A DNA stretch of 64,000 nt from Castellaniella sp. MT123. Its GTDB lineage: Bacteria; Pseudomonadota; Gammaproteobacteria; Burkholderiales; Burkholderiaceae_B. The DNA lies in NCBI RefSeq assembly GCF_039614765.1, contig NZ_CP154879.1, positions 1,054,001 through 1,118,000 on the forward strand, in the 5' to 3' direction. Below, one piece after another: positions 4,999 through 14,555 of the stretch. Both the position numbers and the translations under genes were made by a program. The notes beneath the pieces are model-generated. The model was given only the letters and a program-made list of their open reading frames with translations, searched no databases and was not told the DNA's origin. Position 1 is the stretch's first letter; every line of letters starts with the position of its first letter.

Positions 4999-7937
<2,939 letters not shown>

Positions 7938-7948
<11 letters not shown>

Positions 7949-10457
7949 ATCTTTTTCCATCCGCAACCGCATCTTCGCCGCGGCGATCGTCATCCTGCTG
8001 GCTTCATCCCTGGGCCTGTTCGTTTTCCTGCGGGATTATGCCCGGCGCGCGTCGGACCAGGCTTTCGACCGCGTGCTGGCGGCATCGGCATTGTCGATCG
8101 CCGGCGCCATCAGCATGGAGGACAACCGGATCGCAGTGGAGCTGCCCTACGCCGCGCTGGCGATGCTGTCGCGCCAGCAGCGGGTCTTCTACAGCGTGCG
8201 GGATCCCGGGGGCCGGCTGGTGACGGGCTATGACGACCTGGATGGCGGCATGCCGCTGGCCACATCCGCCAACCCGACCTTCGCCGATCATACCTACCAC
8301 GGCGACGCACTGCGGATCGCGACTCTGGGGCGGCTGATCAGCTTCAACCGCCAGACGCACTGGATCACGATCCGCGTGGCGGAAACCCGCGATGCCCGCG
8401 ACGCACTGGCCGCCGAGATCCTGCAGCGCGGCGCGACCCCACTACCCATCATGGCGGCGGTCGCCCTGGTGCTGCTGTGGTTCGGCATTACGCGCGCCTT
8501 CCGGCCGCTGCGGGGTCTGGAACGCGAACTGCGGCATCGTCAGCCCGAGGACATGGAACCGCTGAGCAGTCCCGCGCCGCGTGAAGTCACCCGGTTGGTG
8601 GAAGCCCTGAACGGCTTCATGCAGCGGCTGCAGGCGATGCTCGACATGCTGCACAATCTGGTCGCCGACGCCGCCCATCAGGTGCGCACGCCCCTGGCGT
8701 CGCTGCGGGCCCAGGCGGAAGTCGCTCTGGATGAGGACGACCCGAAACGGCTGCGCGAGCGGCTGGAGCGCATTTTGAACAACGCGACTCGCGCCAGCCT
8801 GCTGGTCAACCAGCTGATGATGGACGCCACGATCACCCACCGGCTGGGCGTCCGGGGCAACGACCTCGTGGAACTGCTGGACGTGCTGGACGAGGTCCGG
8901 CAACGGATCCGCCCGGAGGACGCGGCGCGGCTGCGGATCTCGCTCTCGCCCGGACTGAAGGATGCGCGTATCGTCGGCGATCGGGTCGCCCTGCGGGAAA
9001 TGATGCTCAACCTGATCGACAATGCCCTGCGGCATGCGCCGGACAGCCCGGTCGAAGTCAACATCAATCCGGCCCCCGACCGGCGCCTGGTCCTGCAGGT
9101 CGCGGACCGGGGACCTGGCATCCCCAACGCGGAAAAAGAGCAGGTCCTCAAGCGCTTCGTGCGCGGCGCGGCGGCGCAGTCCACGCCAGGGTCGGGACTG
9201 GGCCTGGCCATCGTCCAGTCGGTCGTGCAAAGCCACGGGGGCGCCCTGACGCTGCGCAATCGCCCTGGGGGCGGCCTGCTGGCCTGCGTCACCCTGCCCC
9301 TCGGCCCAGCCGGGCGCACCCTGCCCGGGTCACTGGCCAGCCTCTGCATCGCGGCGGCCTGCATCCTGGGGCTGATCGCGGCGCCGAGCCCGGCGGACGC
9401 ACAGATCCTGACCACACGCTACCCGGCCGCACAGCACGAAACCGCGACCCTGACCGTGGCCGGCCCGACCGACACGCCCGTCTTCGACACACTGGCCCGC
9501 GCCTTCCAGCGGACGCACCCGGGCATCGCCCTGGTCTATCACGAACTAGGCAGCCGCCAGCTGTACGAACGGACAGTGGCCGCAAGCCTGCCGCCGACCG
9601 ACGTCCTGATCAGTTCCGCCGAAGACCTGCAACTGCGCCTGGCCAACGACGGCTACGCGCTGCGCCATGAATCGCCCCTGACCCGGCGCCTGCCGCCCTG
9701 GGCGATCTGGCGCTCCGAGGTCTTCGGCTTCACCTTCGAGCCGGTGGTGATGGTCTACAACACCGACCGCTACACCGCAAAAACCGCGCCCCATTCCCGT
9801 AGCGAACTGCTGCGCACCCTGGAGCGGCAAGGCCCCCACGCGCGCATCGGCACCTACGACATCGCCATCAGCAGCGTTGGTCACCTGCTGGTCACCCAGG
9901 ATGAGATGATCTCGTCCAACTTCTGGGGGCTGGCTAACGCTCTGGGCCGCGTCGGCGTGCGGCTGGTGGCGGACACGCGCGATATCCTGGACCGTATCGA
10001 GGCGGGCGAACTGGACCTGGGCTACAACGTGCTGGGCTCGTATGTGCGCGCCTACCGGGGGCGGTACACCAAGCTGGGCATCGTCGTCCCGGATGATTAC
10101 CAATTGGTCCTGACGCGCACCGCGCTGATCTTGCGCCAGACCCGGCAGCCGGCGCTGGCGGGCGAATTCATCGACTGGCTGCTGTCGGCACAAGGCCAGG
10201 CGGTGATCGACGGCCCCGGTGGCCTGGGCGCGCTCCCTGACCTAAGGACAGACGCCGACGACGCCGCCCCCGTTGCCATCGACGGGCTGGCGCATGCGTC
10301 CAGCATCGTCCAACCCATCGCGTTGAATCCTTCGCTGCTGGTCGGGCTGGATCAGCAGCGCCATGAACGCTTCCTGCGGAACTGGCGGCGCCTGGTCACC
10401 GACACGCCGAACCCGTCCGATGCGGTGGCACCTTCCAACACCACGACAGGACGCTGA
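7938..10457 (+). CDS. Sensor histidine kinase fused to a C-terminal periplasmic solute-binding domain
   Basis: This 839-residue protein combines two normally separate modules. Residues 1-455 form a TctE/QseC-like sensor kinase: membrane helix about 12-31, periplasmic segment to about 165, second helix about 168-186, HAMP-like linker, phospho-acceptor His247 in DAAHQVRTPL, N-box NLIDNALRHAP (358-368), DRGPGIP (390-396) and GSGLGLA (418-424). A third hydrophobic segment (about 465-482) ends in SPADAQ, which looks like a signal-peptidase site after Ala488. Residues about 500-820 form a solute-binding domain of the Fe(III)/AfuA class. It is paralogous to the separate binding protein encoded next: GFTFEPVVMVYN, LGYNVLGSY and DDYQLVLTR match its GTTFEPAVFIYN, LGYNILGSY and TDYTLILSR. 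No ATG, GTG or TTG restart is seen at the junction. The topology places kinase inside and binding domain outside. PgtB/PgtC of Salmonella are a two-gene analogue. Confidence 0.9.
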
Positions 10458-10534
10458 CAGGTCCGGCCCCTAAGATGATCTCCAAAGCCGGTCGGAAACC
10501 GGCTCCCGATAACAACAGAGAAGGAGACTCGTCC

Positions 10535-11635
10535 ATGCGCCATCCCGTCACCCGAACCGTTCTGTGCGCCGCCATCCTGTCGGGCGCACTCGCCGCGACA
10601 GCCGGCGCGCAGACCGCGCCGCAAGGCTACCCGGCCGGATACCAGCCCCTGGTGTCCGCCGCCGCCAAGGAAGGCAAGGTCATTGTCTATTCGACCACCG
10701 ACACCAAAGCCGCGAACCCGGTCATCCAGGATTTCGAAAAGCTCTACCCCGGCATCAAGGTCGAATACAACGACATGAACAGCACCGAGCTCTACAGCCG
10801 CTATCTCAGCGAGCAGGCCTCGGGCAGCAACAGCGGCGACGTGGTCTGGAGCTCGGCCATGGATGCCACCATGAAGCTGGCCAAGAGTTACGCCATGGCC
10901 TATCCCTCGGTCGAACTCTCCCACCTGCCGGCTTGGTCGGTCTGGGAAAAGAAAGCGTACGGCACGACCTTCGAACCGGCCGTCTTCATCTACAACAAGC
11001 GACTGGTCAAGGCGGATGAGGTGCCCACCACCCACGCGGCATTCGCCAAACTGGTGGCTGGCGACACTGCCCGGTTCAAGAGCAAGGTCACCACCTACGA
11101 CGTCGAGAAATCCGCCGTCGGCTTCATGCTGGCCGTCCAGGATCAGCGCAACGACCCGAATTACCAGAGCTTCCTGAAGGATTCCAGCAAAGCCGGCCTG
11201 GTCGTGCAGTCCTCGACCGGCACCATGATGGAGCGCGTCTCCTCCGGTGAAAACCTGCTGGGCTACAACATCCTCGGATCTTATGCTGAAACCCGCGCCA
11301 AGTCGGACCCCAGTCTGGGGGTGTCGTATCCGACCGACTACACACTGATACTGTCGCGCGTGGCCTTCATCAGCAAAGGCGCCCAGCACCCGAACGCGGC
11401 CAAGCTCTGGATGGACTACCTGCTGTCCCAGCGAGGACAGAACGTGCTGGCCAATCAGGCCAACCTGGCCTCGGTGCGCACCGATATCGACGGCGACAAC
11501 GACGTCGACGGCATGACCAAGAAGCTGGGCAGCGCGCTCAAGCCCATCCCGGTCGATGAATCGCTGCTGGACTATCTGGATCAGGGCAAGCGCCTGGCAT
11601 TCATCAAGATGTGGCGCAAGGACGCCGGCAAGTAA
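10535..11635 (+). CDS. ABC transporter periplasmic binding protein, Fe(III)/AfuA-FbpA class
   Basis: This 366-residue protein has a signal peptide (TVLCAAILSGALAATAGAQ, cleavage after AGA) and a class-II binding-protein fold: VIVYSTTDTKAANPVIQDFE, YPGIKVEYNDMNS, TFEPAVFIYNKRLV, GYNILGSYAE, and PNAAKLWMDYLLS near the C-terminus. The ATG at 10535 is preceded by AAGGAGA; in-frame codons upstream would add a non-signal extension. The class includes ferric-iron, sugar-phosphate (AfuA) and phosphonate binders. The tyrosine pair typical of ferric-binding FbpA is not obvious, so the ligand may well be a phosphorylated or carboxylated organic molecule. It is paralogous to the domain fused to the kinase just upstream and precedes its permease and ATPase genes. 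Confidence 0.9.
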   Translation: MRHPVTRTVLCAAILSGALAATAGAQTAPQGYPAGYQPLVSAAAKEGKVIVYSTTDTKAANPVIQDFEKLYPGIKVEYNDMNSTELYSRYLSEQASGSNSGDVVWSSAMDATMKLAKSYAMAYPSVELSHLPAWSVWEKKAYGTTFEPAVFIYNKRLVKADEVPTTHAAFAKLVAGDTARFKSKVTTYDVEKSAVGFMLAVQDQRNDPNYQSFLKDSSKAGLVVQSSTGTMMERVSSGENLLGYNILGSYAETRAKSDPSLGVSYPTDYTLILSRVAFISKGAQHPNAAKLWMDYLLSQRGQNVLANQANLASVRTDIDGDNDVDGMTKKLGSALKPIPVDESLLDYLDQGKRLAFIKMWRKDAGK

Positions 11636-11713: not shown

Positions 11714-13483
11714 ATGTCATTCCTACGCCTTCGGCAGCAGTCGCTGCCCCGCGGCCTGGTCGTGACGCTGACCGCGCTGGCGATCTACCTGCCGCTGTCA
11801 TTCATCATCGTCCAGAGCTTTCTGTCGGAACCCTTCTTCCTGCCCGACAAGCACATCGGGCTGGATGCGTTCCGGTTCATCTTCGCCGACCCCGATTTTT
11901 ACGAGGCACTGATCAATGGCTTCCTGCTGGCCTTCGGGCTGGTCGCCATCGCGGTGCCGCTGGGCGGGATCCTGGCGTTTCTCGTTTCGCGCACCGATCT
12001 GCCGGGACGACGCTGGATTCAGCCCCTGATCCTGGTGCCGGTCTTCGTCTCGCCCATGGTGCTGGGTTTCGGTTATGTCGTAGCCGCCGGCCCGGTCGGA
12101 TTTTTTTCCACCTGGACCCAGAACCTGCTGGGGTTCGTGCCCTGGAACATCTATTCCCTGCCGGCCATCATCGTCATCGCCGGACTGACGCACGTGCCCT
12201 ACGCCTATCTGTATATCTCCTCGGCCCTGCACAGCCTGGGGTCCGACGTTGAAGAGGCAGCCCGCAGCACGGGAGCGTCCCCCTTGCAGGTCATGACGGC
12301 CGTCAGCCTGCCCATGGTCCGCCCCGCCCTGTCGTACGCGGCCGTGCTGCTGTTCTTCCTGGGGCTGGAGGTCTTCGGCCTGATGCTGGTGCTGGGGGAC
12401 CCCGAAGGCCACCTGGTCCTGTCGACCTACCTGTACAAGCTGACCAACAAGCTCGGTGTGCCGTCCTACCACCTGATGGCGGCGGTGGCCATGGTGCTGA
12501 TCGCCTTCACGATCCCGCTGGTGACGCTACAGCGGCATTTGCTCAGCAGCGCCAGCCGCTATGCGACCGTCAAGGGCAAGGTCACGCGTCCGCGCGTCCT
12601 GCCCCTGGGAAAATGGCGTCTGACCGCGGGGGTGATCGTGGGCCTGTGGCTGTTCGTCGCCATCATCGTACCGCTCACCGGCGTGGTGCTGCGCGCGTTC
12701 GTCACCAACTGGGGGGTGGGCATTTCGCTCAGGGACGTGCTGTCGGTCCATGCTTTCCAGACCATCTGGGAACAGCCGACCTTGATGCGGGCCGTCTGGA
12801 ATTCGATCCTGATCGGCGTCATCGGCGGGGCGCTCGCGGTCGGATGCTACACCGCAATCGCCCTGGCGATGCACCGAAAACCGGACCATGCAACCCGCTT
12901 TCTGGACTACAGCGTGCTGATTCCGCGGGCCGTCCCCGGGCTGCTCGCGGGCCTGGCATTCCTGTGGATCTTCCTGTTCATCCCCATGTGGCTGAAGGAT
13001 TCGCTGGCTGACGGCTGGTTATCCGTTCTGCCGGGCGCGGCCTGGCTGCAGACGCACGCGGTCGAGCCCTTGCGCAGCCTGCGGTCCACGATCTTCAGCG
13101 TCTGGCTGGCCTATTCGGTGGTCTGGATGGCCTACGGACTGCGCCTGATCTCATCCACGTTGCTGCAGGTATCCCCCGAACTGGAGGAGGCCGCGCGCAG
13201 CACGGGCGCCCGGCCGTCCCAGGTCACGCGCCACGTCACGGTCCCCCTGGCCCGCTACGGTCTGATCGGGTCGTGGCTGCTGATGTTCCTGATCTTCGAG
13301 CGGGAATACTCGACCGGCGTCTATCTGCTCACCCCCGGCACCGAAACCATCGGATCGATGCTGGTCTCGCTCTGGGCCACCGGCGCCATCGACATCGTGG
13401 CAGCGCTGTCCTTCATCAATATTTTGCTGGTCGTCATCGGCATGGGCGTTGCCCTGCGTTTTGGAGTCAAGTTACATGATTGA
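11714..13483 (+). CDS. ABC transporter permease, FbpB/AfuB type (fused double permease)
   Basis: The 589-residue membrane protein has about 12 helices arranged as two MetI-like permease halves. The coupling-helix EAA motifs are both visible: EEAARSTGASPLQVMTAVSLP (about residue 181) and EEAARSTGARPSQVTRHVTVP (about residue 492). Fusion of the two halves in one chain is usual for FbpB/AfuB-type importers. It overlaps the ATPase gene by 8 bp and follows the binding-protein gene, completing an import system. Confidence 0.92.
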   Translation: MSFLRLRQQSLPRGLVVTLTALAIYLPLSFIIVQSFLSEPFFLPDKHIGLDAFRFIFADPDFYEALINGFLLAFGLVAIAVPLGGILAFLVSRTDLPGRRWIQPLILVPVFVSPMVLGFGYVVAAGPVGFFSTWTQNLLGFVPWNIYSLPAIIVIAGLTHVPYAYLYISSALHSLGSDVEEAARSTGASPLQVMTAVSLPMVRPALSYAAVLLFFLGLEVFGLMLVLGDPEGHLVLSTYLYKLTNKLGVPSYHLMAAVAMVLIAFTIPLVTLQRHLLSSASRYATVKGKVTRPRVLPLGKWRLTAGVIVGLWLFVAIIVPLTGVVLRAFVTNWGVGISLRDVLSVHAFQTIWEQPTLMRAVWNSILIGVIGGALAVGCYTAIALAMHRKPDHATRFLDYSVLIPRAVPGLLAGLAFLWIFLFIPMWLKDSLADGWLSVLPGAAWLQTHAVEPLRSLRSTIFSVWLAYSVVWMAYGLRLISSTLLQVSPELEEAARSTGARPSQVTRHVTVPLARYGLIGSWLLMFLIFEREYSTGVYLLTPGTETIGSMLVSLWATGAIDIVAALSFINILLVVIGMGVALRFGVKLHD

Positions 13484-14555
13484 ACTCACTGTCCAGGACC
13501 TATATCTGAATTACGGCACCAACCCGGTTCTCAGGGGTGTCTCTCTGCAGCTTCAGCGTGGCGAAGTCGTCGCGTTGCTGGGCTCGTCGGGCAGCGGCAA
13601 GACCACGCTGCTGCGCGCCATCGCCGGGCTGGAACAAGCCACCCAGGGCCGCATCACGATGAACGACCGGGTGCTCTTCGACGGTGCCACCCGCACCGAA
13701 CTGCCGGCCGAACAGCGCGATCTGGGTATCGTGTTCCAGTCCTACGCGCTCTGGCCCCACAAGACCGTGGCGGAAAACATCGCCTACCCGCTGAAGCTGC
13801 GCAAGGTCAAGGCGTCGGAACAGCAGGCCCGTGTCCAGGAAATCCTGGATCAGCTGGGCATGGGCAAGCTGGGGCAGCGTTATCCCAACGAACTGTCGGG
13901 CGGACAGCAACAGCGCGTCGCCATTGGCCGGGCGCTGGTCTACAACCCGCCCGTGTTGCTGCTCGACGAACCGCTGTCCAACCTGGACGCCAAGCTGCGC
14001 GAGGAAGCCCGCGCCTTTCTGCGCGAACTGATTCTGCGCCTGGGACTGTCGGCCATCCTGGTCACCCATGATCAGGCCGAGGCCATGGCGATTTCCGACC
14101 GCATCCTGTTGTTGCACGAAGGCCGGATCGAACAGCAGGGCACGCCGCAGGAAATGTATGCGTTCCCGCAGACCCGATTCTGTGCGGAATTCATGGGCAG
14201 CAACAACAGCCTGCGCGGCAAGGTCGCCGAGATCGACGCGGAACAGGCGACGCTTCAGGGGGGAAACTGGTCGATTCGCGGGATCGCCAAGGGGCCACTG
14301 GCCAGCGGCCAGGACGCCATCGCCATCGTCCGCCTGGAACAGGTTCGACTGAGCCAGGAGCCCGCCCCCAACAGCATCCGCATGCCGGTATCGGCCAGCA
14401 TGTACTTGGGCGACAAATGGGAATACCTGTTCCGCCACGCCGGCGCGCACGACCCCGAAGCCCTCACCCTGCGCGCCTACGGACGGCACGAGCGCACACC
14501 GGATCCGTGCTATCTGGCGTTGCCGCCCGAAGCCGTATGGATCTTCCCGGCCTGA
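13476..14555 (+). CDS. ABC transporter ATPase, FbpC/PotA type
   Basis: This 359-residue ATPase has Walker A GSSGSGKTT (near residue 38), Q-loop VFQSYALWPHKTV, signature LSGGQQQR, Walker B VLLLDEPLSNLDAKL and switch His in VTHDQAEAM. A C-terminal TOBE-like domain (about 245-355) is typical of the MalK/PotA/FbpC group. The start at 13476 (MIELTVQDLYLNYG) has TGGAG upstream and overlaps the permease stop by 8 bp. It energises uptake through the preceding permease and is the last gene of this operon. Confidence 0.93.
   Translation: MIELTVQDLYLNYGTNPVLRGVSLQLQRGEVVALLGSSGSGKTTLLRAIAGLEQATQGRITMNDRVLFDGATRTELPAEQRDLGIVFQSYALWPHKTVAENIAYPLKLRKVKASEQQARVQEILDQLGMGKLGQRYPNELSGGQQQRVAIGRALVYNPPVLLLDEPLSNLDAKLREEARAFLRELILRLGLSAILVTHDQAEAMAISDRILLLHEGRIEQQGTPQEMYAFPQTRFCAEFMGSNNSLRGKVAEIDAEQATLQGGNWSIRGIAKGPLASGQDAIAIVRLEQVRLSQEPAPNSIRMPVSASMYLGDKWEYLFRHAGAHDPEALTLRAYGRHERTPDPCYLALPPEAVWIFPA

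Follow-up and report, generated by a model that had tools for sequence, protein, structure and literature searches.

A TctE-like sensor histidine kinase joined in one reading frame, through an internal signal-peptide-like segment, to a solute-binding protein

In Castellaniella sp. MT123, a sensor histidine kinase appears to continue, without a stop or restart codon, into a periplasmic solute-binding protein (SBP). Is this a genuine gene, does it yield one product or two, and what might such a protein sense? The first-pass annotation of the window (the whole stretch of 64,000 nucleotides that was analysed) had described a complete kinase that runs through a third hydrophobic segment into a full binding domain, and had suggested that the chain might be cleaved between the two. 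The features on which the following analysis rests, all numbered by their positions in the window, are:

7277 to 7948, + strand: regulator gene, OmpR-type (Response_reg and Trans_reg_C); best NCBIfam model TctD
7938 to 10457, + strand: fused gene of 839 aa, TctE-like sensor histidine kinase, then putative internal signal peptide, then solute-binding protein
7971 to 8030, + strand: kinase transmembrane helix 1, about aa 12–31 (from hydrophobicity; boundaries approximate)
8010 to 8420, + strand: 2CSK_N periplasmic sensor domain, aa 25–161 (Pfam)
8442 to 8492, + strand: kinase transmembrane helix 2, about aa 169–185 (from hydrophobicity; boundaries approximate)
8652 to 8837, + strand: HisKA, aa 239–300, with phospho-acceptor H247 (Pfam)
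8976 to 9305, + strand: HATPase_c, aa 347–456, with intact N, G1 and G2 boxes (Pfam)
9312 to 9401, + strand: putative internal signal peptide, aa 459–488, GRTLPGSLASLCIAAACILGLIAAPSPADA followed by Q, with a predicted signal peptidase I cut after A488 (nt 9401/9402)
9402 to 10454, + strand: solute-binding (putative sensor) domain, aa 489–839; SBP_bac_11 / SBP_bac_1
10535 to 11635, + strand: periplasmic SBP of the ABC transporter, encoded as a free protein that bears its own signal peptide
11714 to 13483, + strand: ABC permease, 589 aa, with two BPD_transp_1 stretches
13476 to 14555, + strand: ABC transporter ATPase

The frame of the fused gene is single and uninterrupted over all 839 codons, and both of its halves are well defined. 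The kinase half is complete, as had been proposed: H247 lies in AHQVRTPL, and N358/N362, a G1 box (DRGPG, residues 390–394) and a G2 box (GSGLGL, residues 418–423) are all present. Its class, which the first-pass annotation had left unnamed, can be specified as TctE-type, given a 2CSK_N match of 125.6 bits (cut-off 23.2) together with HisKA and HATPase_c. C-terminal to HATPase_c, Pfam SBP_bac_11 matches residues 505–757, and residues 480–818 align end to end with the free SBP of solved structure 3c9h (E = 3e-59); the alignment of this half with a second free, solved binding protein, 7f6e, is likewise end to end (E = 3e-35). A literature search on these two structure entries returned no paper. 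The fused SBP half shares 31% identity over 328 aa with the free SBP of the next gene, in agreement with the suggested paralogy and with membership of the AfuA/FbpA-like superfamily. The argument from topology, which places the binding domain in the periplasm, was also supported. An AlphaFold run on the SBP domain with two paralogues from the window gave a pLDDT of 40, and this model was discarded.

We considered whether the fusion could stem from a sequencing error at about 9290–9400, or be contradicted by close relatives that always carry two genes. Neither is the case. A separately assembled Castellaniella sp. genome bin (JAHRWZ010000094.1) contains an ORF of identical length (839 aa) at 99% identity. 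In addition, 69 of the 268 genomes of the window genome's family hold an orthologue of the SBP domain (E ≤ 1e-89), and in 68 of these, which represent 10 genera, it lies in one uninterrupted frame no shorter than 824 aa; in the 69th (G015), the orthologue falls at contig edges. The bin copy and the open-frame orthologues together exclude a sequencing or assembly error, and the single-chain fusion is genuine. Its domain order is thus shared by other genomes within the family, while about 1,160 genome searches at the order, class and phylum level (some genomes repeated), which sampled more than 1,000 genomes, returned no fusion outside it. The long frames of G434 and G1166, which had looked like such fusions, are really overlapping genes in different frames, and in two other candidates (G384 and G321) a gene of its own encodes the SBP. 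A broken copy in G176, in which the kinase frame stops soon past the G2 box and the SBP runs on in other frames (L087, 3995–6482), was rejected as a natural split and is a frameshifted relative; either a decaying gene or base errors may account for it. Within the window's own genus, the fused gene was found in three of ten genomes (G000, G117 and G118; not in G112–G116, G119 or G120), and this patchy occurrence may reflect either loss or transfer. The window's SBP domain clusters with those of two other genera, not directly with that of its congener G118.

In each of the 19 re-annotated loci with an intact fused gene, the response regulator comes first, followed by kinase::SBP, the free SBP, the permease and the ATPase (one locus, in G034, reaches the contig edge before the ATPase), and no fused locus examined lacked a transport SBP. 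The regulator and the fused gene overlap by 11 nt in the window. The ORF of the free SBP, as listed, opens at 10475, with a likely start (MRHPVTRT) at 10535. The regulator's best NCBIfam model is TctD, with a score of 209 bits that stays below the equivalog cut-off of 337; likewise, the locus has ABC genes in place of the adjacent tctCBA tripartite transporter that marks a TctD/TctE equivalog. The permease is one chain of 589 aa in the window and two shorter frames in L072, L086 and L087. The operon adjoins guaB in two genomes of another genus, as it does in the window; this gene is divergent and lies just upstream of the operon, as also in G199 and G202.

Outside the family, the regulator, kinase and SBP are separate genes, and the nearest SBPs adjoin a homologous kinase and regulator. 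In many split loci, the kinase and SBP genes are co-directional with short overlaps (4 nt in L093, L094 and L102), and the split SBPs carry their own signal peptide. Split paralogues also exist inside the family, in many genomes that hold the fused gene. In a maximum-likelihood tree, all fused SBP domains, together with that of the frameshifted G176 copy, form one clade (support 100/100), and all transport SBPs form another (100/98). At the level of sequence, the fusion has a single origin from split cassettes; the simplest history would be one event, in which a kinase gene and the SBP gene that followed it were joined upstream of the SBP's signal peptide.

How does the join compare with a signal peptide? 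In all 40 distinct junctions, a small-x-Ala site comes after a short hydrophobic stretch (judged by eye; an automatic scan picks the site in most). The SPADA-like site of the first-pass annotation exists, about two residues earlier than had been given, as S484-P-A-D-A488 followed by Q489. AxA motifs are common in Ala-rich sequence, Ala-rich helices included, so the plain presence of AxA was dropped as a test; a cleavage matrix built from the neighbouring free SBPs was also dropped because their shared mature N-terminus dominated it. With a cleavage-site matrix built from a set of 30 E. coli signal peptides, the junctions scored a median of 2.9, well above TM1 (−0.3), TM2 (−3.1), permease helices (−2.9) and shuffled junctions (0.4; p from 4e-7 to 7e-19), and below the signal peptides of free SBPs (7.9; p = 1e-5). 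In an unanchored alignment of 18 junctions from one genus, the −1 Ala was the one column without variation in the region that links the hydrophobic core to the segment preceding the SBP. No lipobox was seen by eye at the end of the hydrophobic core, and lipoprotein processing was rejected. By its scores and its conserved −1 Ala, the junction is signal-peptide-like, with a signal peptidase I site and weaker than a standard signal peptide, and the earlier suggestion that the linker resembles a signal peptide and may be cut holds. Long low-complexity insertions are found just after the site in L080, L081, L082 (where the insertion is Asn/Thr-rich), L083 and L085, and before it in L083 and L086.

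As the best explanation overall, and with somewhat better than even confidence, we propose a three-component sensor that is made as a precursor. The kinase and SBP would be translated as one chain, the SBP would reach the periplasm via the signal peptide that the join has retained within the chain, and signal peptidase I would cut after A488, to leave a kinase (with or without a short hydrophobic remnant) and a mature sensor SBP in a 1:1 ratio. Split relatives have overlapping starts at the place that corresponds to the join, as would be expected if the SBP were also, or only, made from an internal start codon and the fusion were incidental. We rejected such an internal start as extremely improbable, because the window gene has no in-frame ATG, GTG or TTG in aa 446–488, and because 40 orthologues contain a single candidate with a ribosome-site-like motif and no conserved one. 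The SBP is thus made only as a portion of the longer polypeptide, and it relies on the internal segment for export.

More weight has to be given to the possibility that the chain stays intact, as a single-chain kinase that the third hydrophobic segment anchors permanently and whose C-terminal SBP, past this third membrane crossing, folds back on the 2CSK_N domain of the same protein. Such a protein would have a very high local concentration of receptor and no diffusible form of it. The single frame in all fused genomes found fits this arrangement, as do the somewhat greater hydrophobicity of the junction segment compared with free-SBP signal peptides (2.55 versus 2.15) and a stretch from the site to the SBP domain that is long enough for a tether. 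Because the junctions score below the signal peptides of free SBPs, some of them may be poorly cut or be uncut anchors, and for this reason we keep the tether as a reading, though one less likely than cleavage. Against it, a −1 Ala and a small −3 residue have been retained in junctions that otherwise diverged, and close split relatives use a free SBP with its own signal peptide. The retention of the site amid diverging surroundings, and the use of a free SBP by the closest split systems, are what lead us to prefer the reading in which signal peptidase I cuts after A488, and we consider this cleavage probable.

By analogy with HptA–HptS, CuaD–CuaS and TctC with TctE, we conclude that the SBP half serves as the kinase's ligand sensor. 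It probably still binds a ligand, as 40 conserved positions are common to the fused, split and transport SBPs. Once liganded, the SBP would dock on the periplasmic 2CSK_N domain, a contact that we consider likely; the kinase would then phosphorylate the OmpR/TctD-like regulator, which would induce the operon to which it belongs, the ABC importer and its second, transport-dedicated SBP included. Control of the ABC operon by this regulator is likewise likely. The retained residues common to transport SBPs would also befit a scavenging domain, or an additional SBP that delivers ligand to the ABC transporter. We consider such a non-sensory role very unlikely, since the fused clade groups with the SBPs that accompany kinases and not with the transport SBPs, and since every fused locus examined already encodes a transport SBP. 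The SBP that is encoded with the kinase and regulator is a dedicated one, in a clade separate from that of the transport SBP.

The genes beside the split relatives point to a class of ligand. CitMHS adjoins all nine loci of the closest split clade (L089, L093, L094, L110–L114 and L118), with TIGR00784 scores of 606–626 bits (cut-off 260) in the three loci tested; TctA/TctC adjoin nine further split loci (L095, L096, L101, L102, L106–L108, L116 and L117), and ABC genes five (L092, L098, L100, L104 and L105), all of which is an association and not a test, as the transporter queries were picked after the split loci had been inspected. Five split loci had none of these three within the stretch read. 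All fused loci adjoin ABC genes; neither CitMHS nor TctA adjoins any of them within the stretch read, and the window genome has no match to TIGR00784 (CitMHS) or TctA. The regulator-kinase-SBP cassette thus adjoins three unrelated transporter families, and so resembles a movable module that senses citrate-like compounds. In Pseudomonas aeruginosa, citric acid elicits a response from TctD–TctE (PMC6403454). From this response, the CitMHS or TctA beside the split relatives and TctD as the best regulator model, our best, if indirect, guess is that the ligand is citrate or a different tricarboxylate and may be bound in complex with a metal; we hold a ligand of the citrate class to be reasonably probable. 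A citrate-like ligand fits better than the sugar phosphates, phosphonates or iron that had been put forward, because the close split relatives adjoin citrate or tricarboxylate transporters.

In the literature searched, to which subscription journals contributed little as they were largely out of reach, we found no report of a C-terminal kinase::SBP arrangement, and the systems of SBP-to-kinase signalling described there use separate proteins. Here a natural fusion has arisen once and been kept in ten genera. As a precursor that is cut, it would supply receptor and kinase at a constant 1:1 ratio; uncut, it would keep the receptor permanently tethered. In both cases, it reveals which SBP signals to which kinase and offers a ready construct for structural work. 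It also points to a citrate-like ligand class for a widespread and apparently unstudied sensor cassette that is paired with three unrelated transporter families.

Among known systems, PgtB/PgtC, the phosphoglycerate sensor named in the first-pass annotation, is an analogy only, and the split cassettes (e.g. L110–L114, L093 and L106) are the real comparison. Their regulator, kinase and SBP are homologous to those of the fused locus and arranged alike, with the SBP and its signal peptide right after the kinase; they differ in that the SBP is a gene of its own, often overlapping the kinase end, and in their transporters, which are CitMHS or TTT and not ABC. We know of no experimental study of the split cassettes beside CitMHS or TctA/TctC. 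BvgS-type kinases carry SBP-like Venus-flytrap domains N-terminal to the kinase in one chain, whereas the fused SBP is C-terminal and lies past a third membrane segment. The earlier statement that no single-chain case has been characterised must hence be narrowed to the kinase-then-SBP order, for which it holds in the literature searched; to our knowledge, no C-terminal SBP sensor on a single-chain kinase has been characterised. For the join itself, the closest parallel is FbcH of Bradyrhizobium, a precursor in which cytochromes b and c1 are made as a single chain, linked through an internal signal peptide, and then cleaved apart. FbcH belongs to a respiratory enzyme and the fused gene to signalling; a precursor with an internal signal peptide is common to both, with cleavage predicted here.

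TctD–TctE and BctE/BctC have the same 2CSK_N kinase and TctD-like regulator. According to PMC8102459, citing Antoine et al. (2005), the periplasmic TctC binding protein is reported to relay the ligand to the TctE kinase. In these systems, the binding protein belongs to the TctC family, is shared with the transporter and has a separate gene, whereas here it is of another SBP family and fused. A dedicated SBP passes the ligand state to the kinase in HptA–HptS–HptR (PMC8774646) and in CuaD–CuaS–CuaR (PMC10384115), both of which differ in having separate polypeptides and kinases of other families. In the window and in 68 genomes, the SBP is instead encoded in one frame with its kinase, and could become a separate polypeptide after cleavage. 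In this three-component sensor, the receptor is attached to the C-terminal end of its kinase via a signal peptide.
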